Of a stretch of DNA of 64,000 nt, positions 34,588 through 53,945 are shown in pieces. The notes beneath the pieces are model-generated. The model was not told the DNA's origin. It searched no databases and worked only from the letters and a program-made list of their open reading frames with translations. This stretch comes from Bradyrhizobium icense (GTDB taxonomy: Bacteria; Pseudomonadota; Alphaproteobacteria; Rhizobiales; Xanthobacteraceae). The stretch's first letter is position 1; the number at the start of each line of letters is the position of its first letter. The stretch covers positions 4,588,001-4,652,000 of the forward strand of contig NZ_CP016428.1 in NCBI RefSeq assembly GCF_001693385.1, in the 5' to 3' direction. The position numbers were made by a program, and so were the translations under genes.

Positions 34588-34619
34588 GGGGTCGAGGGTT
34601 CGAGCCCCCGCGCTCACCA
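34588..34619 (+). other. tRNA 3'-end-like fragment, possible attachment scar
   Basis: GGGTTCGAGCCCCCGCGCTC followed by ACCA resembles a T-arm, acceptor strand and CCA end. The T-stem does not pair fully and no anticodon or D arm lies upstream, so it is not a functional tRNA. Integrases often leave such 3' ends, and the next gene has different base composition. Confidence 0.4.
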
Positions 34620-34867
34620 AAACTCCCTTAATTATAGTGTTTCCTGAGTTAGCCGAAATGCCGTAAGCGATGCTTAACAACCGCGGCGAGCCGTTAGTAA
34701 GTGCGCTTAGTAAGCTCCCTTCGTAAAACGCCACCGCAACTCGGCAGTGTCCCCATAATGTCCTTTTGAGAGCCTGTGAAATAGCCGGTCCTAAGGCGCA
34801 GATTCGTTTGACCGATTTGCCGCTCCTTCGGTATTCCAAGAACGACCACAGCAGGGGCATCAACCGC

Positions 34868-35884
34868 ATGGCCGAACCCAACGGCGACAACCCCCAACAA
34901 AAGAAAACGCAGCAGCCTAAGGTCGGTGACCGATTTTGGTTTTGGCTTGAGGGAGAACCATCCGCATTCGAAGTCATGTTAGCCGACGCACTCGCCGCCT
35001 TTCCAAAATCGGAAGGTGCTGACAATGGTGTCTTTCAGGTAAGAACTTACTCGTGGCGCGGCACAGTAGATTTCACGCACGATTTTCTAGAAACCCATCT
35101 TCCTCGCAAGATCGAACTCCCCTTTGACCGTATAATTACGTTCTTGAGGGTCGATGACACATTGAATTTCTCAATTCCGGTTCCTACGCTGTCTTTTTCT
35201 GACATTGCAACGGCTGGCTCAATCCACATTAGCCCACACAAATACAGCTTCACCCATCAAACGCTATTGATATTGGCGTGTCGTCAGACCGATCACGATC
35301 GCGAGCCACCGGCTCTTGCTGAGACGTTTGACGCTCTCGGCCTCGTCTCGATCCTGTCAGGTCATATTTTGCAGGGTCGCTCTCTTTTTTCTTCCTATTT
35401 CTGCACAAATCGCAAGAAATTCATCAGCGGAACGTTGGGCGTTGTTAGCCAGTCATCTGTAGACTGGACACCTTTAAAGTTAGCGGCTGCTGATCCAGAG
35501 GTATTTGATGCGCGGGATGATAGGACTCATGCCGCACTTTGGTTTGCTGGCGCAGCATTCTCCTCACACGACGACGCTGCCAAAGTTGTTTCTTACGTCA
35601 CTGCTTTCGAAATTCTCATGGGAAAGAACCTGCAAAATTACGTTAGGCAGCTCTATCGGAGAGACTCTGAGTTACAAAAACTTGCATTGGAAAAAATACA
35701 AGCCTTGGAAAAACTGCGAGGTGACCTAGTGCATGCAGGTCGCCGCATCGCACTTTCGCCTGAACTGGAAAGATACGCGCAGGCATTTATCCTTGATGCG
35801 ATCCGCCGCAACAAAAACTTGGCGTCAATGGCGTTTGCAGTGCAAAGCGTGGGTCACTCGATCCGCCAAGGTGTAAGCCCCTAA
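34868..35884 (+). CDS. Hypothetical protein with C-terminal HEPN-like RNase motif
   Basis: 338 residues. No N-terminal family is recognised (VGDRFWFWLEGEPSAFEVML). Near the C terminus LEKLRGDLVHAGRRIALSP gives Arg284 and His289, the R-x4-H signature of HEPN (Apea-type) RNases, followed by the usual long helix. HEPN proteins with such motifs cleave RNA in toxin-antitoxin and phage-defence systems. The gene is distinctly less GC-rich and uses many A/T-ending codons unlike its neighbours, so it was probably acquired. The ATG at 34868 is one choice; a TTG at 34766 would add 34 residues. No partner gene is adjacent. Confidence 0.65.
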   Translation: MAEPNGDNPQQKKTQQPKVGDRFWFWLEGEPSAFEVMLADALAAFPKSEGADNGVFQVRTYSWRGTVDFTHDFLETHLPRKIELPFDRIITFLRVDDTLNFSIPVPTLSFSDIATAGSIHISPHKYSFTHQTLLILACRQTDHDREPPALAETFDALGLVSILSGHILQGRSLFSSYFCTNRKKFISGTLGVVSQSSVDWTPLKLAAADPEVFDARDDRTHAALWFAGAAFSSHDDAAKVVSYVTAFEILMGKNLQNYVRQLYRRDSELQKLALEKIQALEKLRGDLVHAGRRIALSPELERYAQAFILDAIRRNKNLASMAFAVQSVGHSIRQGVSP

Positions 35885-35928
35885 GTCAATTCATTATCAG
35901 TTCGCTCTGCCACTCGATCAGCAAACGT

Positions 35929-35996
35929 ATCCCGGATGAACGCAGCTATATCCGGGACAACTCTACCCCCCGGATATCGCTTCGCTCATCCGGGCC
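35929..35996. repeat. REP-type palindrome pair (ATCCGGG family)
   Basis: TCCCGGATGAACGC, GATATCCGGGG-like and CGCTCATCCGGG arms fold with each other. Similar CCCGGAT/ATCCGGG palindromes are common in Bradyrhizobium intergenic DNA. Confidence 0.5.
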
Positions 35997-36023
35997 ACGT
36001 TCGCTATAACTCACTTCATCCAC

Positions 36024-36115
36024 TTACTTCGCCAGCCCGAGCGACTTCAGCCGCTTGCCGTTGTCCTCGTTGTCGGCCTTCATGAACTCCGCGAACTTCG
36101 CCGAATCAAGATAGA
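36024..36115 (-). pseudogene. Tripartite tricarboxylate transporter substrate-binding (Bug/TctC) protein, C-terminal scrap
   Basis: Minus-strand reading YLDSAKFAEFMKADNEDNGK then RLKSLGLAK and a TAA stop is the typical end of a periplasmic Bug-family receptor. The match stops at the left end of palindromic element copy a (36116), which apparently cut the gene. Confidence 0.6.
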
Positions 36116-36194
36116 ATTACGGTGACAGTGCACTTAACCTGGCGTGATGCTGACCGAGGCGCAACGCGTCAATTGATTGCACTGTCACCGTAAT
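36116..36194. repeat. Palindromic element, copy a (long-core type)
   Basis: Perfect 17-base ends ATTACGGTGACAGTGCA and TGCACTGTCACCGTAAT surround a core containing GATGCTGACCGAGGCGC. The core matches copy f at 41860, so a and f form one subtype. Confidence 0.85.
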
Positions 36195-36243
36195 GCTGCG
36201 TAATGCCTTATAGATAGTCTTACGTGTGCTCTGCGCGTGTTCG

Positions 36244-36633
36244 TCAGGGCGCCCGCACCTTGATGCCGCCGAGGGCGTTGGCGGCTTTGGCGAAATCCTG
36301 GTCAAAGCTCATGACGGCCTCACAGCCTTCCGCCTTGGCCAGATGCAGGCCATCCGCAAAGTCCACGCCTTGCCGCATCCAGCCCAGCGCCTTCGCCGCG
36401 GCGGTAGCATCTTCCAGACTCACGCGCGGAAGCCCTGCGAAATCGGAGAGCGCCTTGGAGCACTGGGCAGCGGAAAACCCATAGACGCTCCGCAGCACCC
36501 ACTCGGTCTCCAGCAGGACTGTGGTGCAGACGAAGACGTCATTGTTGTCGATCAGCTTGCGCGCCCGGGCAGCCTGTCCGGAATCGTCGCCCACCAGATA
36601 GCGGACGATGAGATTAGTATCTATTGCGAGCAT
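36244..36633 (-). CDS. vapC: PIN-domain toxin, VapC family
   Basis: 129 residues. The acidic PIN residues are visible: Asp5 (LAIDTNLIVRYL), Glu in LLETEWVL, and Asp in VDFADGLHL and FDQDF. VapC toxins are Mg-dependent RNases, often cutting tRNA. The ATG at 36633 lies inside the antitoxin gene's 3' end (20-base overlap), the usual coupled arrangement. The pair is bracketed by copies a and b of the palindromic element. Confidence 0.9.
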   Translation of the reverse strand: MLAIDTNLIVRYLVGDDSGQAARARKLIDNNDVFVCTTVLLETEWVLRSVYGFSAAQCSKALSDFAGLPRVSLEDATAAAKALGWMRQGVDFADGLHLAKAEGCEAVMSFDQDFAKAANALGGIKVRAP

Positions 36634-36895
36634 GCCGCCGCTTCGCCTCGGCGGCGATCCCCCTCTCCATATCCGCGATCGACTTTGCCGGCCCCTTATG
36701 GGGCAGCGAGCCAAATACGTCTTTCGGCCGGGTGGGCGCAAAGATGGGCTTCGCCTTCAGCAATACGCCCTCGGGGGTATTCTCCACCATCAGTTCCGTT
36801 CCCGCAGGCCAATGCCGCTGCTCCCGGATCGCCTTGGGCAATATCACTTGGCCCTTGGTCGAGACGATGGTGGTCAGCTTCTGTTTGGCGGACAT
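36614..36895 (-). CDS. AbrB/MazE-type antitoxin of VapC
   Basis: 93 residues. The swapped-hairpin AbrB domain is at the N terminus (TTIVSTKGQVILPKAIREQR then GTELMVENTPEGVLLK); the C-terminal tail (DMERGIAAEAKRRHARNRY) would wrap the toxin. It is the first gene of the operon and presumably represses it with VapC. Confidence 0.9.
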   Translation of the reverse strand: MSAKQKLTTIVSTKGQVILPKAIREQRHWPAGTELMVENTPEGVLLKAKPIFAPTRPKDVFGSLPHKGPAKSIADMERGIAAEAKRRHARNRY

Positions 36896-37000
36896 AGCGA
36901 GCTCATCCGGTAAGACAAAAGTAAGATAGTGGGGCTTGGGCCGGATGGCAAGAGCCCATCTGTTGGGACCTCAAGGTGCACTGACGCCGCCAGCTCCGCA

Positions 37001-37063
37001 ATTGCGGTGACAGTGCTTAATCTGCCGAAGGCGAAGTGCTGTTTAGTGCACTGTCCCCGTAAT
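37001..37063. repeat. Palindromic element, copy b (short-core type)
   Basis: ATTGCGGTGACAGTGCTTAA to TTTAGTGCACTGTCCCCGTAAT with inner TCTGCCGAAGGCGAAG. It has a few point changes and one lost CA relative to copy d. Confidence 0.8.
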
Positions 37064-37073
37064 CCAAATGAAC

Positions 37074-37098
37074 GAGGCCGCCAACTGAGGCGGCCTCA
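37074..37098. terminator. Terminator-like hairpin
   Basis: GAGGCCGCC and GGCGGCCTC around AACTGA, followed by AATTTCTT on the plus strand. It lies about 50 bases past the stop of the small secreted protein gene (minus strand) and could act for either direction. Confidence 0.5.
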
Positions 37099-37150
37099 AT
37101 TTCTTGGCCCATCCAGCGCGCGGTTGCGCGCGCTGGAGCAGCTTGTCCCC

Positions 37151-37369
37151 CTACTTCTTCTTCATGCCGGAGTCGCGTTGATTTTTCTCATATAGCGCGC
37201 GGTCAGCGGCACTAACCGGGGCCCCCAACATGGGCGGTGCTGCGCCAACCGTGGTCGTGGCGGCGGCGGCGGCAGCAGGTGCCTTCGGCTTCGTCGTTTT
37301 CTTGGCTGCCAAAGCGCCAGAAGTGGAGACAGCGAAGATCGCCACACCGACCAGAATTATTTTCTTCAT
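37151..37369 (-). CDS. Small exported Ala/Lys-rich protein
   Basis: 72 residues. A signal peptide (KKIILVGVAIFAVSTSGALA) is followed by a short mature part (KKTTKPKAPAAAAAATTTVG, then VSAADRALYEKNQRDSGMKKK). Mature size is about 50 residues and basic. The start is set by the signal peptide and GGGAGAACTGAGC upstream. No family is recognised. Confidence 0.7.
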   Translation of the reverse strand: MKKIILVGVAIFAVSTSGALAAKKTTKPKAPAAAAAATTTVGAAPPMLGAPVSAADRALYEKNQRDSGMKKK

Positions 37370-37550
37370 GCTCAGTTCTCCCTTTACTTGGAAAAAGGAC
37401 GCGCCGGCAGTCCAGCATAAAGCTCGCATCACGGCAAGCTGGAGTGCTACGCTCCAGGCATGACACGTTCCCATTGCGAAAGGCCCGCCAGCGTGAACCG
37501 GCGAGCCTTCTAACGGCGTCACCATCGCGGATACGCGCCGACAATGCCGA

Positions 37551-37609
37551 TCTGACAGTGCGTTCAATTCACCGATGGTGAAGCGAGTTTAGTGCACTGT
37601 CATCGTAAT
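37551..37609. repeat. Palindromic element, copy c (decayed left end)
   Basis: TGACAGTGCGTTCAATTCACC on the left is degenerate; the right end TTTAGTGCACTGTCATCGTAAT is intact apart from one base. The inner ACCGATGGTGAAGC corresponds to the short-core type. Confidence 0.75.
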
Positions 37610-37897
37610 GCCGCAATGCATCCACGCTTTCCCTGGGGTTTATCAGTCCCATCACCCACGAACAGACGACGGCGGGTAACCCCCACACAAGTGCCACATA
37701 GAACCACTGCTGCCGGAAGATCTTCGCATTCTCTGCCGCCGAGGGGCCCTCGTGCATGAGGCCGTAGTACAGCACGAAGGCGATTCCGAAGCCCGCCAGG
37801 CCACAGGCGAGTGAACGCCACCATCTGTCTGACGGTCGGCGGTCCACCCACGCGGTAAAGAGCATGGGAAGAATCGAGAACGCGTAACAGACCACAT
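37569..37897 (-). pseudogene. 5'-truncated copy of the membrane protein gene at 40717
   Basis: VCYAFSILPMLFTAWVDRRP through GLAGFGIAFVLYYGLMHEGP to VVCSWVMGLINPRESVDALR is nearly identical to the second half of the protein at 40717-41142. The first 45 or so residues are missing because palindromic element copy d (37896) begins exactly where the similarity ends. At the 3' side the frame runs into copy c. No start codon of its own. Confidence 0.8.
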
Positions 37898-37960
37898 TAC
37901 GGTGACAGTGCACTTAATCTGCCGATGGCGAAGTGCAATTTAGTGCACTGTCACCGTAAT
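37896..37960. repeat. Palindromic element, copy d (best short-core copy)
   Basis: ATTACGGTGACAGTGCAC and GTGCACTGTCACCGTAAT are perfect 18-base ends; the inner part TCTGCCGATGGCGAAGTGC can form a second small hairpin. Confidence 0.85.
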
Positions 37961-37965
37961 AGGTC

Positions 37966-37991
37966 GGCGGGTTACGCTTCGCTAACCCGCC
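37966..37991. repeat. REP palindrome, GGCGGGTTA type
   Basis: GGCGGGTTACGCTTCGCTAA followed by CCCGCC; nine-base arms. A second, slightly shorter copy is at 44173-44197. Confidence 0.7.
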
Positions 37992-38009
37992 CTACTCTCT
38001 GCCACCCCA

Positions 38010-38369
38010 TCACCCGCAATTCCATACCGGCCCGATCGGCGTCCGCGTCCAGCACGGGCCGAAGCTGCCGCCATTGTAGCGGCCGCCGTAGAAGCCGGGC
38101 CGGCCGAAATAGTGCAGATTGCCATCCCACCCGTAATATTTTGGGACCGGGTCGATGTACCAGGGACGCCGGTTCTGGCGCGCCAGGCGCCGCAGCGCGT
38201 CCTTCTGCTTGTAGAGCGGAAGGCTGTTGTTCAGCGGCTGCTGGTAACCCGGCAGGAAGCCGTAGCCGTGCCAGCGCGGCGCCGCCCGCTTCTGAAGCGG
38301 CGCGGCCGAAGCAGCGACCGACGACAGCGACAGGACGATGGCGGTGAACAGACAGAAAAGCCTCAACAT
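38010..38369 (-). CDS. Small exported Tyr/Trp/Gly-rich protein
   Basis: 119 residues. A signal peptide (LRLFCLFTAIVLSLSSVAAS) is followed by a mature part rich in Trp, Tyr, Gly and Pro (WHGYGFLPGYQQPLNNSL, RRPWYIDPVPKYYGWDG, FYGGRYNGGSFGPCWT). Two cysteines near the C terminus may form a disulphide. The start is taken at the Met directly before the hydrophobic segment. No domain is recognised. Confidence 0.75.
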   Translation of the reverse strand: MLRLFCLFTAIVLSLSSVAASAAPLQKRAAPRWHGYGFLPGYQQPLNNSLPLYKQKDALRRLARQNRRPWYIDPVPKYYGWDGNLHYFGRPGFYGGRYNGGSFGPCWTRTPIGPVWNCG

Positions 38370-38503
38370 CCGCGCACCATAGACAGCCAGCCGCCGGTTC
38401 GCCATTCAAATCTGGCGGCAAGCACGCAGCATAAAAGTCTGTTCGAGCGCTGATTGCGGCCACCTGCGAATCGGTCGATTCTCGGATCGACATGGGGTGA
38501 TTC

Positions 38504-40573
38504 GTGCTCGCTGAAACCAACGATCGATATCTTGAAGGCCTCAATGCGGAGCAGCGCAGGGCCGTCGAGCACGGCATCGGCCCGGATGGAACGGTCGGCG
38601 CGCCGCTTCTTGTCATTGCTGGCGCGGGGTCCGGAAAGACCAACACTCTCGCTCATCGTGTGGCCCATCTCATCATCAAGGGCGCCGACCCGCGCCGCAT
38701 GCTGCTGATGACGTTCTCGCGCCGTGCCGCCTCCGAGATGACGCAGCGTGTCGAACGCATCGCGCGCCGCGTGCTCGGCGACAAGGCCGGCATCATGACG
38801 GAGGCGCTGACCTGGGCCGGAACGTTTCATGGCATGGGGGCGCGGCTGCTGCGCGAATATGCCGAGAGCATCGGCTTCGATCCGGCCTTCACTATCCACG
38901 ATCGCGAGGATTCGGCCGACCTGCTCAACCTGGTGCGCCACGAGCTCGGATTTTCAAAGACGGAGTCCCGCTTTCCCACCAAAGGCACCTGCCTTGCGAT
39001 CTATTCCCGTTGCGTGAACGCGCAGGCGCCGATCGAGACGGTGCTCGGACAGCACTATCCATGGTGTTCGGGATGGGCGGACGAGCTCAAGCAACTGTTC
39101 GCCTGTTACGTCGAGGCCAAGCAGAAGCAGAATGTGCTCGACTATGACGACCTGCTGCTGTGGTGGTCGCAGATGGTATCGGAGCCCACCATCGCACAGG
39201 AGATCGGCGGCCGGTTCGATCATGTCATGGTCGACGAGTATCAGGACACCAACAAGCTGCAGGCGGCGATCCTGCTGGCGCTCAAGCCGGATGGGCGTGG
39301 CCTCACCGTGGTGGGAGACGATGCCCAATCGATCTATTCGTTTCGCGCCGCCACCGTCAGGAACATTCTGGATTTTCCTGACCATTTCAGCCCGCGGGCT
39401 GAGATCGTCACGCTCGACCGTAACTATCGCTCGACCCAGCCGGTCCTGGCCGCAGCAAATGGCGTGATCGGGCTTGCCCGGGAACGCTTCACCAAGAACC
39501 TCTGGACCGAGCGCCATTCGGCCCGGCTGCCGCGTCTCGTCACCGTGCGCGACGAGGCCGACCAGGCGCGCTACATCGTCGAGCAGGTGCTGGCGAACCG
39601 CGAGGAAGGATCGCGGCTCAGGGAGCAGGCCGTTCTGTTCCGGACGTCGTCGCACAGCGGCCCGCTGGAGGTCGAGCTGACGCGGCGCAATATTCCCTTC
39701 GTCAAGTTCGGCGGCCTGAAGTTTCTGGACGCCGCCCACGTCAAGGACGTTCTGGCGCTGCTCAAGTTTGTCGAGAACCCGCGTGACCGCGTCGCCGGAT
39801 TCCGCGTGCTGCATCTGTTGCCCGGCATCGGCCCGGCGTCCGCGCAGCGCATTCTCGATCAAGTCACTGTCATGGCCGATCCGATCTCTGCGCTCGCGGC
39901 GCTTCCTACCCCGCCCCGCGCCGGCCAGGACTGGACCGCCTTCGTCGAAACGCTTGCTAATCTCCGCTATTCGGAATGGCCTGTCGACATCGAACGCATC
40001 AGGCACTGGTACACCCCGCATCTGGAGCGCATCCACGAGGATGCCGAGGTGCGGCTCGCCGATCTGCTACAGCTCGAGCAGATCGCATCTAGCTATCCCT
40101 CCCGCGAGCGCTTCCTGACCGAACTCACGCTCGATCCGCCTGATGCGACCAGCGATCGCTCGGGGCCACCGCTGCGCGACGAAGACTATCTGATCCTGTC
40201 CACCATCCATTCTGCAAAGGGGCAGGAATGGAAATCGGTATACGCCCTCAACGTCGTCGACGGCTGCATGCCGTCCGATCTCGGCGCCGGCACGACGGCT
40301 GAACTCGAAGAAGAGCGACGCCTGCTCTACGTTGCGATGACGCGCGCCAAGGACGATCTGCACCTGATCGTGCCGCAGCGCTTCTTCGTGCATGGCCAGC
40401 AGGCCCGCGGCGACCGCCATGTCTATGCGTCGCGGACGCGGTTCATACCCGACCATCTGGTGAAGCTGTTCGATCGGCAGATATGGCCGGCGGCGGCCCC
40501 GGCGGCACGCGCGACGCCAAGTCAAGCCGTGCAGATGGATATTCGTGAGCGCATGCGCGGCATGTGGCGTTAG
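38504..40573 (+). CDS. UvrD/Rep-family ATP-dependent DNA helicase
   Basis: 689 residues, superfamily 1A. Helicase motifs in order: I (IAGAGSGKTNTLAHR), Ia (MTFSRRAASEM), II (VMVDEYQDTNKLQ), III (GDDAQSIYSFRAA), IV (LDRNYRSTQPVL), V (STIHSAKGQEWKSVY) and VI (RLLYVAMTRAKDDL). It should unwind DNA 3' to 5' in repair or replication restart. The GTG start at 38504 gives a normal N terminus (LAETNDRYLEGLNAEQRRAV). It is not the largest UvrD type, and may be a secondary helicase. It stands between palindromic element copies d and e. Confidence 0.93.
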   Translation: MLAETNDRYLEGLNAEQRRAVEHGIGPDGTVGAPLLVIAGAGSGKTNTLAHRVAHLIIKGADPRRMLLMTFSRRAASEMTQRVERIARRVLGDKAGIMTEALTWAGTFHGMGARLLREYAESIGFDPAFTIHDREDSADLLNLVRHELGFSKTESRFPTKGTCLAIYSRCVNAQAPIETVLGQHYPWCSGWADELKQLFACYVEAKQKQNVLDYDDLLLWWSQMVSEPTIAQEIGGRFDHVMVDEYQDTNKLQAAILLALKPDGRGLTVVGDDAQSIYSFRAATVRNILDFPDHFSPRAEIVTLDRNYRSTQPVLAAANGVIGLARERFTKNLWTERHSARLPRLVTVRDEADQARYIVEQVLANREEGSRLREQAVLFRTSSHSGPLEVELTRRNIPFVKFGGLKFLDAAHVKDVLALLKFVENPRDRVAGFRVLHLLPGIGPASAQRILDQVTVMADPISALAALPTPPRAGQDWTAFVETLANLRYSEWPVDIERIRHWYTPHLERIHEDAEVRLADLLQLEQIASSYPSRERFLTELTLDPPDATSDRSGPPLRDEDYLILSTIHSAKGQEWKSVYALNVVDGCMPSDLGAGTTAELEEERRLLYVAMTRAKDDLHLIVPQRFFVHGQQARGDRHVYASRTRFIPDHLVKLFDRQIWPAAAPAARATPSQAVQMDIRERMRGMWR

Positions 40574-40603
40574 CGGCCTACTTCCGTCGCCAAGCGCGCC
40601 GGC

Positions 40604-40702
40604 GTGCTGTGTTGTGTCTTGTTTATGGGATTAAGCGCTCAAGCGCTCGTGCAGACATCGGCCGCGGACAATCCGGGCCTGACCGCCGCGCAGCTTTCGA
40701 GA
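40604..40702 (+). pseudogene. Possible 5' scrap of an exported protein
   Basis: From GTG 40604 the frame reads like a signal peptide (LCCVLFMGLSAQALVQTS) plus AADNPGLTAAQLSR, and then runs into palindromic element copy e, which supplies a TGA stop. No ribosome site is seen; it may be a gene cut by the element or a chance frame. Confidence 0.35.
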
Positions 40703-40727
40703 TTACGGTGACACTGTCACCGTAATA
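40703..40727. repeat. Palindromic element, copy e (core lost)
   Basis: ATTACGGTGACA and TGTCACCGTAAT joined by a single base. The two ends are kept and the whole core and inner end sequence are gone. Confidence 0.8.
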
Positions 40728-41142
40728 CATCTACGCTCTCCTTACCGTTCGTCAGTCCCATTACCCACGAGCAGACAACGGCGGGTAACCCCCACACAAG
40801 TCCCACGTAGAACCAGTCCCGCTGGAAGATCTTCGCATTCTCTGCCGCCGAGGGGCCCTCGTGCATGAGGCCGTAGTACAGGACGAAAGCGATTCCGAAG
40901 CCCGCCAAGCCACAGGCGAGTGAACGCCACCATCTGTCTGACAGTCGACCGTCCACCCACGCCGTAAAGAGCATGGGAAGAATCGAGAACGCGTAGCAGA
41001 CCATCAACGACGGCAGCCAATACCGCCCATCCTCGAAAATCGGCCCGTCCGTCCGGGCGGCGAGAAACGCGATGCAGTAGAGCCAGGCAAGAAACGGCCC
41101 GAGGGCGGCAAAGAACTGAAGCCTTGTCGTTTCGGTCGCCAT
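40717..41142 (-). CDS. Hypothetical four-helix membrane protein
   Basis: About 141 residues from the ATG at 41142, which has AAGGAAA upstream. Four hydrophobic segments: FFAALGPFLAWLYCIAFLAA, WLPSLMVCYAFSILPMLF, SLACGLAGFGIAFVLYYGLM and FYVGLVWGLPAVVCSWVMG. No family is recognised. The last codons (VDVLR) and the TGA stop lie inside palindromic element copy e, so the natural C terminus may have been different. A truncated near-identical copy is at 37569-37897. Confidence 0.7.
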   Translation of the reverse strand: MATETTRLQFFAALGPFLAWLYCIAFLAARTDGPIFEDGRYWLPSLMVCYAFSILPMLFTAWVDGRLSDRWWRSLACGLAGFGIAFVLYYGLMHEGPSAAENAKIFQRDWFYVGLVWGLPAVVCSWVMGLTNGKESVDVLR

Positions 41143-41246
41143 GGCAGCGATTTCCTTATCGGAGTTGCCGGGATGCTTTCTCACCAACCCGATAAACCTT
41201 TGTCGCTGCGGGGCCTCCTCTCGTTCAGGCTCAAGGGTTACCCGCC

Positions 41247-41859
41247 TCACCGCTGCCTTTGCGCCAGATAGAATCCGAACAGCACCGTGACCAGCCCGCC
41301 GCCTGCAGCGCGGTCGGGGGCTCGCCGAGCAGGAGCCAGCCGGCGAGGATCGTCAGCGCCGGCACGGTGGCGGGAAACACCGCGGCGCGGGCGACGCCGA
41401 TGGTCTGGATCGAGAATGCGAACAGATAGAGCGCGGCGGGGCCGGCCAGGATGCCCTGTGCTAGCGCCTGCAGCGCGTTTTCAGCCCAGCCCAGCGCCGC
41501 CACGCGGGCGAACCCTCCGAGGGCCGCATAGAGCGGCAGCAGCGCGAGCGAAAGCACGCTGATGATGGTGGCGGCCGAGAACGCGGAGACGCGCCAATGG
41601 CGCAGCAGCGTGCCGAACACGGCGAACATCAATCCGGTCATCACGAACAGCAAATCGCCCAGCACGCCATCGGCGCCGATATGGCCGATCGACTCGGCGC
41701 CGATCACCGCAAGCCCGCCGACGATGACGAGCGCCCCCGCTACGCGCGAGGGCGGCAGCACCCGCTCGCGCAGGAACAGCGCTGCGAGCAGCAGGCCGCC
41801 CAGCGTCGCGCTGGACGGCTGGATGACGCTGCCATGGCCGAGCGGCATGAATAGGAAGG
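41247..41859 (-). pseudogene. Truncated, frameshifted copy of the EamA transporter at 43102
   Basis: The protein from PLGHGSVIQPSSATLGGLLL to GEPPTALQAAG is almost identical to residues about 105-290 of the gene at 43102-44022. The first third is missing, cut at 41860 where palindromic element copy f begins. After ALQAAG one base is lost (CCAGCCCG against CCAGTCCCG), which replaces the normal end GFYLAQRQR with an unrelated tail. One extra codon (RERVLPP against RERVPP) is also present. Confidence 0.85.
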
Positions 41860-41917
41860 ATTACGGTGACAGTGCACTTAACTTGCCGGGATGCTAACCG
41901 AGGCGCGATCCATTGAG
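41860..41917. repeat. Palindromic element, copy f (left half, long-core type)
   Basis: ATTACGGTGACAGTGCACTT followed by a GATGCTAACCGAGGCGC core as in copy a. The right end is missing; the match is lost soon after CATTGAGTG. Confidence 0.75.
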
Positions 41918-41979
41918 TGGGCGCATGGGCAGGTCACGGTCGATCGCGCAAGGGCCATCGAATCTGGTATAAACGCCGG

Positions 41980-42138
41980 ATGCATCCCGATGCAGCCAGC
42001 CCCCTGCTGCCGCTCGTCACCCTGGCCGCGGGCGTGTTTCTGCTGATGGCGCCCCGTATCGTCAGCGTCGCAGTGGCGGTCTATCTGATTGTCACCGGCC
42101 TTCTCGGCCTGAACGGGATCTACCACTTCTTCAGATAG
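41980..42138 (+). CDS. DUF3096-like small membrane protein
   Basis: 52 residues: PLLPLVTLAAGVFLLMAPRI then VAVAVYLIVTGLLGLNGIYHFF, two hydrophobic helices with a tight turn. It matches the DUF3096 type of tiny membrane proteins, function unknown. The start at 41980 gives the usual N terminus; a longer frame begins inside element copy f. Confidence 0.7.
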   Translation: MHPDAASPLLPLVTLAAGVFLLMAPRIVSVAVAVYLIVTGLLGLNGIYHFFR

Positions 42139-42184
42139 GTGCGGGAGCGCGGCACCGCTGCCCCGCGCCTCGCCCTGCTGTCTT

Positions 42185-42853
42185 TTAGCCTTGTGGGGCT
42201 GGCATGGTAGGCGGGGGACTCAGGACTGCGCCTCCAACCGAAACGGGTCCTACAAAGTTCGGCTGCCGAGCCATCTTCTTGCGCACGACGCGGGATAGCC
42301 GGTTGCGTGCGTGCCGTGCTGGAATGGAGGACGTCACTTCCGGGCTTAGCGCATTTTTCAGCGAGTCGACCTTCGCGATCAGCGTGGAAATCTGCGCGGA
42401 CATCTTCTTCACGTCTTCATGTTCATTCGTGATCTGAGCGGATATTTTCTTCACGACGACCTGCTCATCCGCGACGCTCTGCCGTAGAGAAGCAAGCGCA
42501 ATTGCATCCTGCTGAAGAAGCGCGGTGTTCTGCTGCAACAGCGAGCTGTTCTCCTGCAGAGCGGCAACGTGCTGCTGCTGCGCCGATTGGACATCCTTCG
42601 ATGAGGGGCCAGCCAGATCCGCCATCAGATCGGAAATTTTCTGGTGCGGAACGAGATCGGCCAGCATGCTGACAGTCGGCAGGGCAAAATCGGAAGGCGT
42701 CATGGTATAGACGGCCGCGGCACTGTTTATTCCAATAGCGAACACCGACAGCGCCAGGATCGATTTCCGGCTCGATTGCTTTGTCGATGGCTTGCTCGGC
42801 GCCGTGGATTCGGGTTGTTCGCTTTCGCTCTGCTTTTCCGGTGTACTGGTCAC
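42185..42853 (-). CDS. Membrane-anchored coiled-coil protein
   Basis: 222 residues. An N-terminal hydrophilic tail is followed by one hydrophobic helix (ILALSVFAIGINSAAAVY), then a Gln/Leu-rich coiled coil (ENSSLLQQNTALLQQDAIAL, continuing to IAKVDSLKNAL) and a basic, Pro-rich end. The GTG at 42853 is chosen because GAGG lies ten bases upstream; a TTG 15 bases earlier is poorer. No family is recognised. A terminator-like hairpin stands 31 bases upstream of the start. Confidence 0.72.
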   Translation of the reverse strand: MTSTPEKQSESEQPESTAPSKPSTKQSSRKSILALSVFAIGINSAAAVYTMTPSDFALPTVSMLADLVPHQKISDLMADLAGPSSKDVQSAQQQHVAALQENSSLLQQNTALLQQDAIALASLRQSVADEQVVVKKISAQITNEHEDVKKMSAQISTLIAKVDSLKNALSPEVTSSIPARHARNRLSRVVRKKMARQPNFVGPVSVGGAVLSPPPTMPAPQG

Positions 42854-42883
42854 GTGCAATAACCTCAAATGAGTAAACGAAAA

Positions 42884-42916
42884 GAGCCGTCGCCGGATCG
42901 TCTCTCGCGACGGCTC
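42884..42916 (-). terminator. Terminator-like hairpin before the coiled-coil gene
   Basis: GAGCCGTCGC and GCGACGGCTC, perfect ten-base arms; on the minus strand it is followed by TTTTCGTTT. It could end transcripts from the EamA gene at 43102, or attenuate the coiled-coil gene. Confidence 0.65.
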
Positions 42917-43023
42917 CTTTACGCGGCACCCAACTAGAACTAGCTGAGACTTTAGGCTGATCAGATTAATTCGGCGTTAGCGCCTCAGCAGCGTAGCCCG
43001 CATGAGCGCAGCGAGATGCGGGA

Positions 43024-43088
43024 ATTACGCTGACGGTGCACTTAATCTGCCGAAGGCGAAGGGCCGTTTAGTGCACCGTCATCGTAAT
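43024..43088. repeat. Palindromic element, copy g (short-core type)
   Basis: ATTACGCTGACGGTGCACTT to AGTGCACCGTCATCGTAAT; inner TCTGCCGAAGGCGAAGG. It has paired changes on the two sides (GACGGTGCAC against GTGCACCGTC), which keep the stem. A GC-rich REP palindrome (CCCGCATGAGCGCAGCGAG then ATGCGGG) directly precedes it. Confidence 0.85.
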
Positions 43089-43101
43089 CGCATCACACAC
43101 C

Positions 43102-44022
43102 TCACCGCTGCCTTTGCGCCAGATAGAATCCGAACAGCACCGTGACCAGTCCCGCCGCCTGCAGCGCGGTCGGGGGCTCGCCGAGCAGGAGCCAGCCGGC
43201 GAGGATCGTCAGCGCCGGCACGGTGGCGGGAAACACCGCGGCGCGGGCGACGCCGATGGTCTGGATCGAGAATGCGAACAGGTACAGCGCGGCGGGGCCG
43301 GCCAGGATGCCCTGTGCCAACGCCTGCAGCGCGTTTTCAGCCCAGCCCAGCGCCGCCACGCGGGCGAACCCTCCGAGGGCCGCATAGAGCGGCAGCAGCG
43401 CCAGCGACAGCACGCTGATGACGGTGGCGGCCGAGAACGCGGAGACGCGCCAATGGCGCAGCAGCGTGCCGAACACGGCGAACATCAATCCGGTCATCAC
43501 GAACAGCAAATCGCCCAGCACGCCATCGGCGCCGATATGGCCGATCGACTCGGCGCCGATCACCGCAAGCCCGCCGACAATGACGAGCGCCCCCGCGACG
43601 CGCGAGGGCGGCACCCGCTCGCGCAGGAACAGCGCGGCCAGCAGCAGGCCGCCGAGCGTCGCGCTGGACGGCTGGATGACACTGCCATGGCCGAGCGGCA
43701 CGAACAGAAAACCAGTATAGCTGATGAGCGACATCACAGGCCCGCCCAGCACCATCAGCACCAATGCGCGGCCCCATCCGATGCCGCCGAGATCGGCGAT
43801 GCCTGCGCGAAGCACGAGCGGCAGGAACGCGAGCCCCGACCACACGAAGCGGTGCATCAGCAGGTCCGGCGGCGTGAAGCCGCTCCTGAGCCCGTGCCGG
43901 GTCGCGACAAAGCCGAGCGCCCAGAACAGCGCCGCACCGGCGCCGCACGCGACCCCAAGCAGGGCCGGCTTCGCGTCAGGTTTTTGGGCTGGAGCATCGC
44001 CGCCGCTGGTCGGCTGGTTCAT
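43102..44022 (-). CDS. EamA/DMT-family transporter
   Basis: 306 residues, ten hydrophobic helices in two EamA repeats, from LLGVACGAGAALFWALGFVA to GLVTVLFGFYLAQRQR. It is a different subgroup from the EamA genes at 20235 and 29115. It is the full-length parent of the fragment at 41247-41859. Start at 44022 gives a short hydrophilic N terminus before helix 1. The substrate is unknown. Confidence 0.88.
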   Translation of the reverse strand: MNQPTSGGDAPAQKPDAKPALLGVACGAGAALFWALGFVATRHGLRSGFTPPDLLMHRFVWSGLAFLPLVLRAGIADLGGIGWGRALVLMVLGGPVMSLISYTGFLFVPLGHGSVIQPSSATLGGLLLAALFLRERVPPSRVAGALVIVGGLAVIGAESIGHIGADGVLGDLLFVMTGLMFAVFGTLLRHWRVSAFSAATVISVLSLALLPLYAALGGFARVAALGWAENALQALAQGILAGPAALYLFAFSIQTIGVARAAVFPATVPALTILAGWLLLGEPPTALQAAGLVTVLFGFYLAQRQR

Positions 44023-44121
44023 GGCCGACGCTTACGTCAGCAGACACCCCTGTTCAACCCACGCCCATGCAGGGCTGACGGGCGCGCCGCCGCAGGCCGC
44101 CTGCTCGCCTGGCAAGCGCAG

Positions 44122-44197
44122 GGCGGACTAGTCTAGCCGAAGGCGTAATCCGCCATTCCAAGTAACCAGGTCGGCGGGTACGCTTCGCTAACCCGCC
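44122..44197. repeat. Two REP palindromes
   Basis: GGCGGACTAGTCTAGCCGAA to GTAATCCGCC at 44122-44153, and GGCGGGTACGCTTCGCTAAC then CCGCC at 44173-44197. The second is the same type as 37966-37991. Confidence 0.6.
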
Positions 44198-44231
44198 TTA
44201 CTTGCCAGGCGACACCTTGGAGATTGGAAAC

Positions 44232-44669
44232 ATGGCGCTCAAGCGGATGGACAACGTAGGAATCGTCGTCGAAGACCTCGGAGGGACGATTGATTTCTTT
44301 CGCGAGCTCGGCCTTGAGCTCGAAGGGCGGGCCACGATCGAAGGAGAATGGGCCGGACGTATCACTGGGCTGGGCGATCAGCGCGTCGAGATTGCCATGA
44401 TGCGCACGCCGGATGGCCACAGCCGGCTCGAGCTCTCCCGCTTCCTCACGCCGCCTGTCGTCGCAGATCACCGCAACGCCCCGGTCAACGCCCTGGGCTA
44501 CCTCCGCGTCATGTTCGCCGTGGACGACATCGACGAGACGCTTGAAAGGCTCCGCAATCGCGGCGCGCAGCTCGTCGGCGAAGTAGTCCAGTATAAAGAC
44601 GCGTATCGGCTCTGCTACATCCGCGGGCCTGAAGGGCTTCTCATCGGACTCGCCCAAGAACTCGGCTGA
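44232..44669 (+). CDS. VOC-superfamily (glyoxalase/dioxygenase-fold) protein
   Basis: 145 residues. Two beta-alpha-beta-beta-beta modules: KRMDNVGIVVEDLGGTIDFF with RVEIAMMRTPDGHSRLELS, and YLRVMFAVDDIDETLERLR with IRGPEGLLIGLAQEL. Metal-binding positions are only partly conserved, so catalytic activity is uncertain. The ATG at 44232 is chosen over an upstream in-frame start because of the family N terminus. Confidence 0.85.
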   Translation: MALKRMDNVGIVVEDLGGTIDFFRELGLELEGRATIEGEWAGRITGLGDQRVEIAMMRTPDGHSRLELSRFLTPPVVADHRNAPVNALGYLRVMFAVDDIDETLERLRNRGAQLVGEVVQYKDAYRLCYIRGPEGLLIGLAQELG

Positions 44670-44873
44670 GTGCAATACGGCTACAATGACGGAGGGTGAC
44701 CAATGTCAGCGAGCGCGTCTCGCAGGGTTGTTTGGCTAGCACATTACGCGTAGAGCGAGAACACGTCGCAGTTTGCAAGCAAGCGTAGGACGGAAAGCCG
44801 CAATCCGGGCTGCGCTCGCTACTTTGCATGGGGTTGTTTTCGCGATTTTGTGTTTGGCATCGGAAGGATCGAC

Positions 44874-45047
44874 ATGAACGGAAATCGATATTACGGGGTT
44901 CGCGTCGAGGGCGCGAAATACGGCGTGGGTTTCGGCTCGGCGCTCGCCATCGCGATCTCCTATACCAACAACCATTCGATCCTCTGGGCGATCATTCACG
45001 GCATCCTGGGCTGGCTCTACGTGATCTATTTCGCGCTGTTCAAGTGA
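44874..45047 (+). CDS. Small hypothetical membrane protein
   Basis: 57 residues. [20 protein letters not shown] then [20 protein letters not shown] and [12 protein letters not shown]: two hydrophobic segments. GGAAGG lies eight bases before the ATG. This short two-helix type is common in Bradyrhizobium but has no assigned function. Confidence 0.7.
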
Positions 45048-45184
45048 TCCGGCTTACGCCGTTCCTCCTGCCCTGCACTATTGCGCCTACGGGCTCCTTT
45101 TGCCTCGGGACCGGGGATTTTCCCTTGCTTTACCCGGACATGAACCTACGGTGCGCCTCGCCTGGACATGGCCAAAGGACGATA

Positions 45185-45535
45185 ATGGACGATGCGATGA
45201 ACTGCCCGAAATGCAATTCCGAACATGCCTATCAGGATGGCAGCCTGTGGGTCTGCCCGGAATGCGCCCATGAGTGGAGCGCCGAGGCCGGCGCCGCCGC
45301 AGAGGCCTCGCCTGAGGCGGGCGTGCGTGATGCCCACGGCAACGCGCTCTCGGACGGCGACAGCGTCATCGTCCTCAAGGACCTCAAGGTGAAGGGATCG
45401 TCGTCGGTCGTCAAAGGCGGCACCAAGGTCAGGAACATCCGCCTGACCGAGGGCGCAGACGGCCACAACATCGCCTGCAAGATCGACGGCATCGGCGCGA
45501 TGAACCTGAAATCGGAATTCGTGAAGAAGGCGTAA
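45185..45535 (+). CDS. phnA: PhnA-family zinc-ribbon protein (YjdM)
   Basis: 116 residues. An N-terminal zinc ribbon ([14 protein letters not shown] with VCPECAHEW) is followed by the conserved PhnA domain ([19 protein letters not shown] and [20 protein letters not shown]). Despite the name it is not a phosphonate enzyme in most species. It has its own promoter region and no obvious partner. Confidence 0.92.
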
Positions 45536-45576
45536 GCATGCGGGCTACTCGCTTACGCCGGGGGTGAAGAACGCGA

Positions 45577-45837
45577 CTACCATCCGCGATTCATGTGGCG
45601 CACCTCGCCGGTTCGCGAATCGACATAGACTTCCATCCAGCGGCCCGCGCGGTCGCGGCCTTTGATCTCCCACTGATCGCCCTGGAACTGGGTGTAGGAC
45701 ACCGTCATGACGCCGAGACCGGTCGCGACGCCGAGCGCGTTCTCCATCGAGATCTGGTCACCGGAATCGAAGGCGACGGCAGGTGTCGCTGCGCCAAGCG
45801 CCAAGGCCGTGACGATTGGAAGGATGACATTTCGCAT
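45577..45837 (-). CDS. PepSY-domain exported protein
   Basis: 86 residues. A signal peptide (RNVILPIVTALALGAATPAVA) is followed by a single PepSY-like domain (ENALGVATGLGVMTVSYTQF, then IKGRDRAGRWMEVYVDSRTG). PepSY proteins are periplasmic inhibitors or accessory modules. GGAGTG lies just before the ATG. Repeat copy A lies about 150 bases upstream of its start. Confidence 0.8.
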   Translation of the reverse strand: MRNVILPIVTALALGAATPAVAFDSGDQISMENALGVATGLGVMTVSYTQFQGDQWEIKGRDRAGRWMEVYVDSRTGEVRHMNRGW

Positions 45838-45985
45838 GGAGCACTCCTGTCGAACGCGTTGAGCTGTTACGCCAGTTAGAACGAGCGGCAGGGGCAATGT
45901 GTTCCGACGCTGGATATCGCGAAACAGCACGAAACTTCGGCAGTTGGGGCGATTTGGTGGCGGTTCCCCACACAATCACGCCGCA

Positions 45986-46072
45986 GCCTTGTTCTCCATC
46001 CGAGTCCATTTTGTTCGCAAGGAACGAATCGTATCAGCGCAAATCGGCGCGGATCAATTCCTAACAAATGGT
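45986..46072. repeat. ~90-bp dispersed repeat, copy A
   Basis: TTGTTCTCCATCCGAGTCC then ATTTTGTTCGCAAGGAACGA and CGGCGCGGATCAATTCCTAA. It aligns along its length with copies B (48149) and C (48946), with more changes than those two have between them. It lies between the PepSY gene and the terminator of the SH3 gene. Confidence 0.8.
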
Positions 46073-46165
46073 TCGCGGTTCGCGGGGCGGAGTATCGCAA
46101 GCGCAATCCGCCATTCGCGCGCCACGAAGCGGCCCGTCAAGCCGCCAGCAGTTGTCGAGGAAAAA

Positions 46166-46190
46166 AAGCCCGGCTCAAGGCCGGGCTTTT
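46166..46190. terminator. Rho-independent terminator, strong on both strands
   Basis: GCCCGGC and GCCGGGC arms around five bases, with a run of seven A on one side and TTTT on the other. It ends the SH3 gene, whose stop is at 46194. Confidence 0.85.
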
Positions 46191-46193
46191 CGT

Positions 46194-47216
46194 TCATTGG
46201 CGCCTGTCCGGACCTTGGCCTCCGCCACCGCCCGGTCCACCGCCACCGCGCGGTGCGATGTGCGGCGCGCCGCCGCCTTGCGGCATCGCGGGCGCTGCTG
46301 CGCGTGGAGCGCCCGGGGCCGGCATCTGCGCGCGTACGTTCGGCGGGCCACCGCCGCCGCGCGCTGCATCGGGCTGCGTCATGCGGGGCGTCGCACGCTC
46401 GATCCGCGGCGCAGCCGCTCGCGGTTCGTCATGGCCGCGGGCCATGACCGGCGGCGTCTGCGTACGGCCGCGGGCCGTCGGCTGCACGCGCACGGGCGCT
46501 CTCGCGTTCTCACGCGTCATCCGCGCGTCTTCGCGCGTCATGCGGTCCTGCACCGCCGCGCGTTCGCGCGCTTCGCGTGCGCCACGCGTCGTGATGTCCC
46601 TGTCCCGCGTCACGCGTTCGGTCACACCGGCGCGGCTCCGCTCTGTCACACCTGCGCGCGTCCGTTCCTCGACACGGGCACGCGATCTCTCCTCGACACC
46701 GAAACGCTCCTTTGCACGCGTCCTTGCCTCGGGGAGCGCAGCGTCGCGCGCTGCCGCCGCGCGGCCGATCCGGGCCGCCGAGCGGTCGATCGTCAACCGC
46801 GTCGCGACACGCTCATGCGATCGCCAGTAGCCGCTCCAGTGGGTGCGGCGATGATACCAGGGACGTCCCGCATAGTGGCTTGACCAGTACGAGGTCAGCA
46901 CGAACGGCACGATGGGAACGTCGATCTCATCGACATAGTCAGGCAGATAGACGTAGCGGTTGCGGTAGAGATATTGGAGATATCGCGACGACACCCAGCC
47001 ACGATCATCCGACCAGCTCACATCGCACCAGGCCTTGCCTCTGAAGCACCCGTGGATGTTGACGCGGGCGCCGCCTGGAATGCGGTCGACCGTCGGAAAG
47101 CCTTCACCGGGCCCTGCCTTCAGGCTGACCGTGGTGGTGACGATGCCCGGCGCCGCCAGTGCGGCGGCCGGCATCAGCAGCATGGCTGCTGCGAAAAACA
47201 ACCCTCTCAGTTTCAT
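46194..47216 (-). CDS. Exported SH3-domain protein with Arg-rich low-complexity tail
   Basis: 340 residues. Signal peptide (KLRGLFFAAAMLLMPAAALA), then a bacterial SH3 domain (VSLKAGPGEGFPTVDRIPGG with WCDVSWSDDRGWVSSRYLQY), a Tyr/Trp-rich linker, and a long tail of near-repeats of ARxEERTRAG/VTERSRAG and MTREDARMTREN, ending Gly/Pro-rich. The SH3 domain probably binds cell wall peptides. GAGGAGG precedes the ATG at 47216; a longer frame begins in a PaiB-derived scrap. Confidence 0.82.
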   Translation of the reverse strand: MKLRGLFFAAAMLLMPAAALAAPGIVTTTVSLKAGPGEGFPTVDRIPGGARVNIHGCFRGKAWCDVSWSDDRGWVSSRYLQYLYRNRYVYLPDYVDEIDVPIVPFVLTSYWSSHYAGRPWYHRRTHWSGYWRSHERVATRLTIDRSAARIGRAAAARDAALPEARTRAKERFGVEERSRARVEERTRAGVTERSRAGVTERVTRDRDITTRGAREARERAAVQDRMTREDARMTRENARAPVRVQPTARGRTQTPPVMARGHDEPRAAAPRIERATPRMTQPDAARGGGGPPNVRAQMPAPGAPRAAAPAMPQGGGAPHIAPRGGGGPGGGGGQGPDRRQ

Positions 47217-47329
47217 GGCGAGTTCCTCCTCATGAGTCGGAACGCCGTAGCGAAACAGGCGTTCCCAGAGGAGTGACCGCGTTAGCCCAAAGAAAGCAGG
47301 CGTCTCGCAGGCGCGAGACGCGGTGCTCG

Positions 47330-47372
47330 TGTGCTGATTGAGCTTTGACTGGCTCTCGATCTCATCGACGAC
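47330..47372. repeat. Short duplicate of a PaiB-gene segment
   Basis: The stretch around GAGCTTTGACTGGCTCTCGA and TCTCATCGACGACG repeats 48419-48462 inside the PaiB pseudogene with few changes (encoded peptide VVDEIESQSKLNQH against VVDEIEGQSKLNQH). It spans the stop codon of the glucokinase gene. Confidence 0.6.
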
Positions 47373-48069
47373 GGGGCTTGACCGCACCCTTCTTCCAAAG
47401 CCGAAATCCGCCCTCGAACGCGTTGGTGTTGGCGCCGACGCGGACCTTGCGCGGCAGCTTGTCGACCTTGTCGGCGTTTCCGCCGCCCAGCATGATGTAA
47501 TCCGGCTCCAGTGCAGCGAGCAGACGCTTCAGGACGTCATCGACCGCGCGTTGCCATTTCTTCCTGCCAACGCGCTTGAGGGCTGCGGCGCCGACGCATT
47601 GCTCGAACGTCTTGCCGTTGCGGTACGGCAGGTGAGCGAGCTCCATCGGCTCCAGAACGCCATCCACGATCATCGCGGAGCCAAGACCAGTCCCAAGGCC
47701 CAGGAACAGCATCCGGCCGCCCTGGTAGCTGCCGATCGCCTGCATCAGCGCATCGTTGACGACCTTCGTCGGGCGGCCGAAGGCCTTTTCGAAATTGAAA
47801 CCGGCCCACCCGAGACCGAGATTGTGAGGCTCCGACAAGGGCCGGTTGTTGACCACAGGTCCCGGATACCCGACTGCGACGACGTCATAGGACCAGTCCT
47901 TCGTCAGCGCCTTGACCCTCCTCACCATCACCTTCGCGGAAAGGTCGGGACCGGACGCAAACGCGCGCCTGGTTCGCTCTTTGTCGGTCATGACCTTCAC
48001 CCGCGAACCACCGATGTCGATCACGAGGACCGTATGTCGCGATGCACGCTTGCCCGTTTTCTTCGTCAT
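47362..48069 (-). CDS. ppgK: ROK-type kinase, polyphosphate glucokinase-like
   Basis: 235 residues. An ATP/polyphosphate-binding loop (VLVIDIGGSRVKVMTDK), the sugar-site segment (VAVGYPGPVVNN), NDALMQAIG and a glycine motif (FLGLGTGLGSAMIVDG) match the polyphosphate/ATP glucokinase group of the ROK/hexokinase fold. The predicted reaction is phosphorylation of glucose with polyphosphate or ATP; donor preference is not readable. Repeat copy B ends about 80 bases upstream of its start. Confidence 0.82.
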   Translation of the reverse strand: MTKKTGKRASRHTVLVIDIGGSRVKVMTDKERTRRAFASGPDLSAKVMVRRVKALTKDWSYDVVAVGYPGPVVNNRPLSEPHNLGLGWAGFNFEKAFGRPTKVVNDALMQAIGSYQGGRMLFLGLGTGLGSAMIVDGVLEPMELAHLPYRNGKTFEQCVGAAALKRVGRKKWQRAVDDVLKRLLAALEPDYIMLGGGNADKVDKLPRKVRVGANTNAFEGGFRLWKKGAVKPRRR

Positions 48070-48148
48070 GAATTCGCGTCCTGCTCGGCCGGATGATCAT
48101 AACTCCAGCCGATACTCACCTGAAGCAGAGAGACAAGCAGCACCACAG

Positions 48149-48255
48149 CTTTGTTCTGCATCCGACTCCATTTTGTTCGCAAAGAACGAATCGGAATCCT
48201 GCAAATCAGCGCGAGCCAATTCTTAACAACGCGTTTGCTTGCTTGGTGCTTGCGT
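48149..48255. repeat. ~90-bp dispersed repeat, copy B
   Basis: TTTGTTCTGCATCCGACTCC, ATTTTGTTCGCAAAGAACGA, ATCAGCGCGAGCCAATTC and TTAACAACGCGTTTGCTT. It is closest to copy C, and the match extends into GTGCTTGCG and CGGATGTCG. It contains the small palindrome GTTCGCAAAGAAC. Confidence 0.85.
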
Positions 48256-48293
48256 AGCACGGATGTCGTGCTCAACCCGTTGGCTCATCCGCG

Positions 48294-48862
48294 CTACTGC
48301 TCAACGTCATACCCCAGCTCCGGCCGCAACGCTCTCATCTTCCGCGCGAGCCTTCTGCTCCCCGTCTCCTCCGCCCGCGCCAACTGGTTCGCCACCGCCA
48401 CATGATCGTCGTCGCTCTTGTGCTGGTTGAGTTTTGACTGGCCCTCGATCTCATCGACGACGAGATCGATGACGCGGATCGAGGCCAGCATCGTCTCGCG
48501 CTTGGCGGGCTCCATCCGCGCGAGGTCCCAGGGCTGTTTCGGCAGGCGCGCCTCGGCGGCCGCGAGCAGCGCGTCGCCGTGGGCGCGGTTCTCGTCGCGC
48601 TCACGCAAGTAGCCGACGCCAGAGAGATGCACGGCCTCGTAGAGCCAGGTCGAGACGTTGTCGCGCGAGGCATACCAGTCGTTGGAGACATAGGCTGGAT
48701 CTGGACGATCACGCCATCGTCGCGGCGCTGGAGGACAAACGGCACGTGCGAGGCGCGCGGGCCGCGCACGTCGGCGGCGACGATCACGCCAAAGCCGCGC
48801 TCTGCCGCAAACGCGAGCGCGCGGCTCTCCTCGATGCGAAACTGGGGACGGAGAATATGCAT
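48294..48862 (-). pseudogene. PaiB-family FMN-binding regulator, internally deleted and frameshifted
   Basis: The N terminus (HILRPQFRIEESRALAFAAE, then ASHVPFVLQRRDDG) and, in another frame, AYVSNDWYASRDNVSTWLYE to WDLARMEPAKRETML and DEIEGQSKLNQHKSDDD match PaiB/FMN-binding negative regulators. The segment that carries the conserved GHLARANPQW block in PaiB is missing between them, and one base is lost near 48695, shifting the frame at VIVQIQ. The gene is therefore unlikely to make a functional protein. Copy C of the dispersed repeat lies just upstream. Confidence 0.75.
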
Positions 48863-48945
48863 GGCCAAGCGCTCGCTGGAAGTAGTCGGCTCAAGCGAGG
48901 CTAGCCTATTCTCACCTGGTGGTCATCGGTCCGAGCCCAGCACAC

Positions 48946-49055
48946 AGCCTTGTTCTTCATCCGACTCCATTTTGTTCGCAAAGAACGAATCGGAATCGCG
49001 AGAAATCAGCGCGGACCAGTTCTTAACAACACGTTTGCTTCGTGCTTGCGCGCGG
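48946..49055. repeat. ~90-bp dispersed repeat, copy C
   Basis: CTTGTTCTTCATCCGACTCC, ATTTTGTTCGCAAAGAACGA, ATCAGCGCGGACCAGTTC and TTAACAACACGTTTGCTT. Same orientation as copies A and B. Confidence 0.85.
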
Positions 49056-49082
49056 ATGTCGCGGAGAATGCGCTCATCACGA

Positions 49083-49111
49083 AAAAGCCCGCGACGACAT
49101 CGCGGGCTTTT
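49083..49111. terminator. Rho-independent terminator, both strands
   Basis: AAAAGCCCGCGA and TCGCGGGCTTTT, perfect twelve-base arms with a five-base loop. It ends the small exported protein gene at 49160. Confidence 0.85.
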
Positions 49112-49159
49112 GAAACTTGGGCAAGACGCTCAGTCGGCGAGCCGATCAAACGGCTGTGC

Positions 49160-49703: not shown

Positions 49704-49742
49704 ACGAAAGGCAAAGTCGTATTCAGCAATGTGCCGGCGGCA

Positions 49743-50971: not shown

Positions 50972-50974
50972 CCG

Positions 50975-53935: not shown

Positions 53936-53945
53936 ATCGTGCCGC

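Follow-up and report, generated by a model that had tools for sequence, protein, structure and literature searches.

Results

A cluster of palindromic elements among truncated genes

The window analysed here is a 64,000-nucleotide stretch of the Bradyrhizobium icense genome (contig NZ_CP016428.1, positions 4,588,001 to 4,652,000). Its 34-46 kb region is a mosaic of gene pieces and seven short palindromic elements, named a to g (Table 1). The elements are defined by a 17-nt end, ATTACGGTGACAGTGCA, for which 12 matches at up to 3 mismatches were found across the window. All 12 fall within 36,116-43,088, against a chance expectation of 0.08; an earlier note made from the sequence had likewise seen no copy elsewhere in the 64 kb. 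The same note described seven copies sharing both ends. This holds for a, b, d, e and g, but only the right end is matched in c and only the left end in f. Both arms together with a core are present in a, b, d and g, which we regard as complete elements.

Table 1. Elements and gene pieces of the mosaic, with the second element cluster of the same genome
Feature	Position (window unless stated)	Strand	Remarks
Element a, complete, long core	36116..36194		adjoins stub of a gene that continues in relatives
Element b, complete, short core	37001..37063		end matches and fold
Element c, good right arm, degenerate left tip	37553..37609		adjoins gene X fragment
Gene X fragment, between c and d	37611..37894	-	90% identical to 40,720-41,003
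Element d, complete, short core	37896..37960		terminates X fragment
Gene Y stub, cut off at e	40584..40694	+	homology ends at 40,693-40,699 in L118, L121, L180, L181, L182, L183
Element e, collapsed 25-nt palindrome without core	40702..40726		beside gene X
Gene X, then EamA copy truncated at f	40727..41857	-	contiguous with full EamA in L121
Element f, left half only, long-core type	41860..41906	+	repeat family, end match, fold
Element g, complete, short core	43024..43088		end matches and fold
Complete EamA gene beside g	43102..44022	-	98% identical to truncated copy over 300 bp
Second cluster: h, i complete; j, k half ends	L189 3823-7312 (genome 4.208-4.212 Mb)

Six elements, when folded as single-stranded DNA, were more stable than all 200 of their shuffled versions (z -3.9 to -9.4), but the half element f showed no such advantage (z +1.15; 200 shuffles). 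Paired changes in g had been taken to preserve its stem. Position 12 is indeed compensated, but position 7 is changed on both sides with loss of pairing, and over 101 elements the signal is weak (7 matched double changes vs 132 one-sided; shuffles gave 2.5 on average and 8 at most). A search of Rfam with the elements gave no match, nor did a search of a plasmid collection with element d at E 1e-5. Palindromic repeats of other kinds, which have many copies in relatives, lie at 35920-36005, 37963-38003, 42990-43023 and 44112-44200 of the window; they look similar to repetitive extragenic palindromes (REPs).

Gene homology ends at the element tips

Four elements terminate truncated genes: gene X at d, gene Y at e, EamA at f, and at a the gene to its left. 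All four genes continue in relatives. X extends past the end of its window fragment in the comparison loci L118, L121 and L179. Homology on the left of a stops at 36,115 in L121, L148 and L181; to the right of b it starts at 37,067-37,070 in L179, L185, L186 and L187. Element g is also found beside EamA in L180 and L148.

The clearest case is the element beside X. It is the same over 59-70 nt in the window (c) and in L118 and L179, which are two contigs of B. murdochi WSM 1741, and homology stops at its outer tip, leaving three different left neighbours in the three contexts. The collapsed copy e beside X has a fourth neighbour. L121 is less clean, with a half element and other repeat DNA preceding X. 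Elements c and e probably represent a single old insertion that was duplicated along with X; the two are not independent.

At a tolerance of 3 bp, a tip coincided with a homology break in six of the seven elements, compared with 1.0 expected from random intergenic placement (reached in 0/20,000 placements). When only the 15 loci located by other means than an element were counted, the result was 4/7 vs 0.67 expected (P 0.0025). The earlier note had proposed a comparison with relatives for precise empty sites; read from the table of matches of at least 100 bp, none of the 19 comparison loci contains a contiguous empty site for any of a to g.

Two other pieces of the zone also have counterparts. 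A PIN-domain gene between a and b (36244-36900) has a 712-bp match elsewhere in genome G006, and the gene copy at 37973-38386 is 83% identical to genome positions 5,141,353-5,141,761.

Distribution in the genome and a second cluster

On the single 8.32-Mb contig, 17 ends with at most one mismatch occur at 13 places. Five of these places lie inside one 7-kb stretch, a concentration reached by none of 20,000 random placements; the strong clustering proposed from the window thus stands, and an even genomic spread is rejected. A second group of elements, h to k, is located outside the window (Table 1). For element h (genome 4,208,823-4,208,887), B. australiense WSM 1791 offers a near-precise empty site: its locus L166 lacks the 65 nt of h plus about five more. 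Three of the four elements of this cluster (h, j and k) lie at match ends, vs 0.73 expected. The count supports little, because h amounts to a simple insertion when compared with L166, k lies 15 bp off and i has no informative flank. At j, gene homology to several relatives stops.

A parent transposon encoding a Y1 transposase

A 22-nt version of the end was scanned over one genome per species and returned at least 120 stretches. The matches listed were from Alphaproteobacteria, many of them Bradyrhizobium, or from metagenome-assembled genomes titled only Proteobacteria. In these and later loci the ends repeatedly frame the same gene, represented by 26 distinct reading frames of 210-244 aa with HxH and YxxLNP motifs. 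Among 39 oriented left ends followed by the start of such a gene, 21 have an inverted right end at a distance of 735-779 bp (20 distinct right ends); the other 18 have no right end within 600-840 bp.

The protein of this parent transposon matches the Pfam family Y1_Tnp above the cut-off and the NCBIfam family REP_Tyr_transpos below it. Residues H60, H62 and Y119 are invariant across 21 aligned transposase sequences. The AlphaFold model (mean pLDDT 86) has as its nearest structure the REP-associated transposase 4er8 (E 2e-7), followed by the TnpA proteins of ISDra2 and IS608. Extra helices are predicted after the Y1 core; Pfam gave no match to a helix-turn-helix family, a C-terminal domain resembling a helix-turn-helix being expected of TIR-associated tyrosine transposases (TIRYTs; TIR, terminal inverted repeat). 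Among the matches listed, 7,987 of 7,999 database proteins resemble the parent protein at E <= 1e-20.

In the right flanks of some parents, part of the tip (CCGTAAT, CTGTCACCGTAAT) recurs several times (L143 748-830, L076 7551-7700, L171 3434-3485 and L174 1882-2013). Genome G017 carries three copies of an IS3-type element with ends TGGACTGCACCCCTGAAG (L302-L304), one of which sits inside a TIRYT-type element and generates ends reading ...CAGTGCT. Ends reading TTACGGTGACAGTGCT were rejected as a variant, as in G017 they derive from this IS3-type insertion.

The transposase across Bradyrhizobium

We used the parent protein of Bradyrhizobium sp. WSM3983 (L138), designated P0001, as the query for a survey of the genus. 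At E <= 1e-10 it had no match in the window's genome. It matched 21 of 98 Bradyrhizobium genomes, fragments counted, while ends with at most one mismatch were present in 81 of the 98. The window's genome, with 16 ends, is tied third (reversed control, 0). The median number of ends is 8 in genomes that have a transposase match and 3 in the rest (Mann-Whitney P 2e-6, uncorrected for kinship).

No Y1 or RAYT (REP-associated tyrosine transposase) gene was found in the window, as had been noted before. The sole PF01797 match of the genome is at 621,629 (L029 1435-1968; genome about 621,563-622,096). It is an ordinary RAYT of another type, above the NCBIfam cut-off and with other repeats around the gene. 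Because the parent gene has no match here and the sole Y1 gene is a different RAYT, the window elements are best read as stranded non-autonomous copies.

Insertion features and parallels in other genomes

No target duplication was detected in 104 complete elements (lengths 2-5 bases, offsets 0-4). The dinucleotide GA directly precedes 137 of 383 ends (36%; background 6.8%). A one-sided GGA flank was considered as a mark of the nicked strand and was set aside, its sidedness not being clear.

We also examined 12 loci, all in transposase-bearing genomes and several of them picked because fragments had already been seen there. In five (L250-L254), and also at L174, a left-anchored parent fragment stands head-to-tail before a complete copy and ends exactly at the next left tip, with no visible homology between the joined points. 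The fragments are 85-99.7% identical to the complete copy, and four of eight printed fragment junctions follow GG (units of at least 60 nt, L132 excluded). Right-anchored fragments occur at L255 and L256, not directly abutting. Nested insertion followed by far-side loss, or tip nicking followed by synthesis and rejoining, would either of them give head-to-tail fragments. In L108, L129 and L132 short elements are repeated head-to-tail, tip to tip, like the parents in L250-L254.

B. jicamae and B. lablabi differ at L149/L172 by 2.6 kb, and two elements bound the difference. A composite transposon was considered for it and set aside, since the gene concerned was located nearby in B. jicamae beside another element.

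Discussion

Judged by the enzyme encoded between such ends in other genomes, the elements are very probably relatives of the TIRYTs, cousins of the RAYTs. Y1 genes flanked by inverted repeats were given this name by Di Nocera et al. (2013; PMC3733652), and the portions of that paper drawn on here describe a GGGGWSAS motif common to some of the repeats, not all, and genomic families formed by some TIRs, in many cases dimers or clusters. Most of those TIRYTs were placed in subclass 2.1, with motifs NHVH, W[EQ] and YIxLNP and a median length of 238 aa (Quentin et al., 2018; PMC6006769, as far as the portions used here go). The same portions of the two papers propose movement of such elements without demonstrating it and name no TIRs of this kind from Bradyrhizobium; the part covered of a 2016 study of repeats in B. 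japonicum USDA 110 (PMC5082802) holds nothing on these ends.

Our elements resemble these systems in that a Y1 HUH gene lies between inverted repeats that are not REPs (seen in other genomes, the window copies being members by their ends only) and in that the repeats are also met at a distance from the gene, as dimers or clusters. The parent enzyme has NHVH, WQ and YVSLNP, which fit NHVH, W[EQ] and Y[IV]xLNP, and a length near 238 aa. The consensus end GGTGACAG differs by one base from the printed GGGGWSAS, which the right arm of b, GGGGACAG, fits. The earlier note, which saw REP-type palindromes moved by a RAYT, was right in direction, as the elements do belong with a RAYT-like Y1 transposase, but wrong in subfamily, because the motifs of that enzyme fit TIRYTs of subclass 2.1 and not the RAYTs of GTAG-type REPs. 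The elements are like REP/REPIN systems in being short palindromes that a single-copy Y1 enzyme presumably mobilises in trans; they differ in their ends, which read ATTACGG... and have no GT[AG]G foot, in a single arm that forms no hairpin, and in the enzyme subclass. With the IS200/IS605 elements IS608 and ISDra2 they share a predicted Y1 fold, the lack of target duplication and a bias in the end flanks, but the ends here are inverted, whereas IS608 has subterminal hairpins at its ends, and no tnpB was seen.

We consider it likely, taking the conditional steps below together with the rest, that these are TIRYT elements resembling miniature inverted-repeat transposable elements (MITEs), whose tips were cut and rejoined at gene breaks. 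The observations under this explanation are direct: common ends, an intact parent transposon elsewhere, homology breaks at the tips, and the failure to detect either a target duplication or, in this genome, a transposase match. The elements would be non-autonomous, consisting of two inverted ends of about 17-22 nt and a short core, and would depend for movement on a Y1 HUH tyrosine transposase acting in trans, which the window's genome seems no longer to encode. The enzyme may nick single-stranded DNA at a tip beside a GGA-like flank, and the element would be inserted beside such a flank. If a tip is occasionally joined up with resected or other DNA, the result could be intact tips facing truncated or foreign genes. 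As an account of the mosaic itself, tip cutting is put forward tentatively, at something short of an even chance.

Several results weigh against this explanation. Movement of the elements is deduced from sequence comparison and has never been observed. The breakpoint association weakens at 15 bp (7/7 vs 3.9, P 0.014; 6/7 vs 3.3, P 0.042), falls to 4/7 vs 1.83 (P 0.08) at that tolerance when the five syntenic-zone loci are taken alone, and includes the non-independent c and e. The test was not repeatable at two clusters of G014, whose flanks were mostly unique among the 31 genomes searched. The GGA flank is not clearly one-sided (GGA at 12/39 left ends, TCC at 3/21 right ends). The difference in end counts between genomes is open to kinship, and every intact parent contributes two ends to it. 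Finally, gene order at about 34,600-54,000 of the window differs among four relatives of the genus, and the zone loci L181-L184 carry no element; the zone therefore rearranges without elements too.

A mosaic made by homologous or slipped recombination between copies of TIRYT-related elements, or between other repeats, with no part for a transposase, is possible though somewhat doubtful. In its favour, the zone holds many similar copies at short distances from one another and is rich in other repeats, the 2.6-kb B. jicamae/B. lablabi difference is bounded by two elements, and the window's genome now has no transposase match. The arms are short, however, and the element beside X is constant over 59-70 nt in three contexts with homology ending at its outer tip, where internal crossing-over should have exchanged a portion of it; nor do the left-anchored parent fragments, which end at a tip, show homology between the joined points.

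It is less likely that a hotspot of rearrangement with other causes lies here, in which the elements merely inserted or survive. The stretch before about 34.6 kb is common to the window's genome and the four relatives, and it is beyond this point that they differ in gene order, four zone loci being free of elements; the intergenic null at 15 bp accounts for about half of the coincidences. Intergenic placement nevertheless predicts fewer coincidences of breaks with tips, at 3 bp, than were counted, and none of the seven elements is flanked by contiguous homology. Very improbable is an origin as MITEs of a DDE transposase or as structured RNA elements: the inverted ends and the strong folds of six elements would suit it, but target duplication is absent in 104 elements, the gene between the ends is Y1, there is no Rfam match and little covariation, and the IS3-type element that G017 has between such ends was inserted into a single element. 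Also very improbable are REPs or REPINs of the GTAG type belonging to an ordinary RAYT: palindromes, clusters and a Y1 enzyme of the wider family speak for them, but the ends and the parent gene contradict this reading, the GT[AG]G foot is missing, the lone arm f does not fold, and the RAYT at 621,629 is of another type surrounded by other repeats.

Tip cutting and rejoining, if it occurs, invites a comparison. Helitrons and ISEcp1-type elements are known for one-ended mobilisation, and by analogy the elements described here join a fixed tip to variable neighbours, with gene fragments between elements; they differ in using one tyrosine and in being tiny, and any gene mobilisation here is putative. 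TIRYT transposons and their palindromic offspring might then be gene-shuffling agents, a bacterial analogue of one-ended Helitron-like mobilisation, a speculation that we think unlikely as matters stand. A cut at one tip, joined to resected, duplicated or foreign DNA, would leave adjoining genes truncated, copied or carried along.

The name TIRYT appears in just two papers of the literature searched, and the family is little studied. What emerges here is a large alphaproteobacterial family with hundreds of ends. Since it has intact parents of 735-779 bp, its ends show a flank bias, one element has a near-precise empty site and fixed tips are met by different neighbours, mobility and tip cutting are directly testable. 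Should the elements prove to cause the breakpoints, a transposase among the smallest known would be helping to set gene order in a soil genus relevant to farming.

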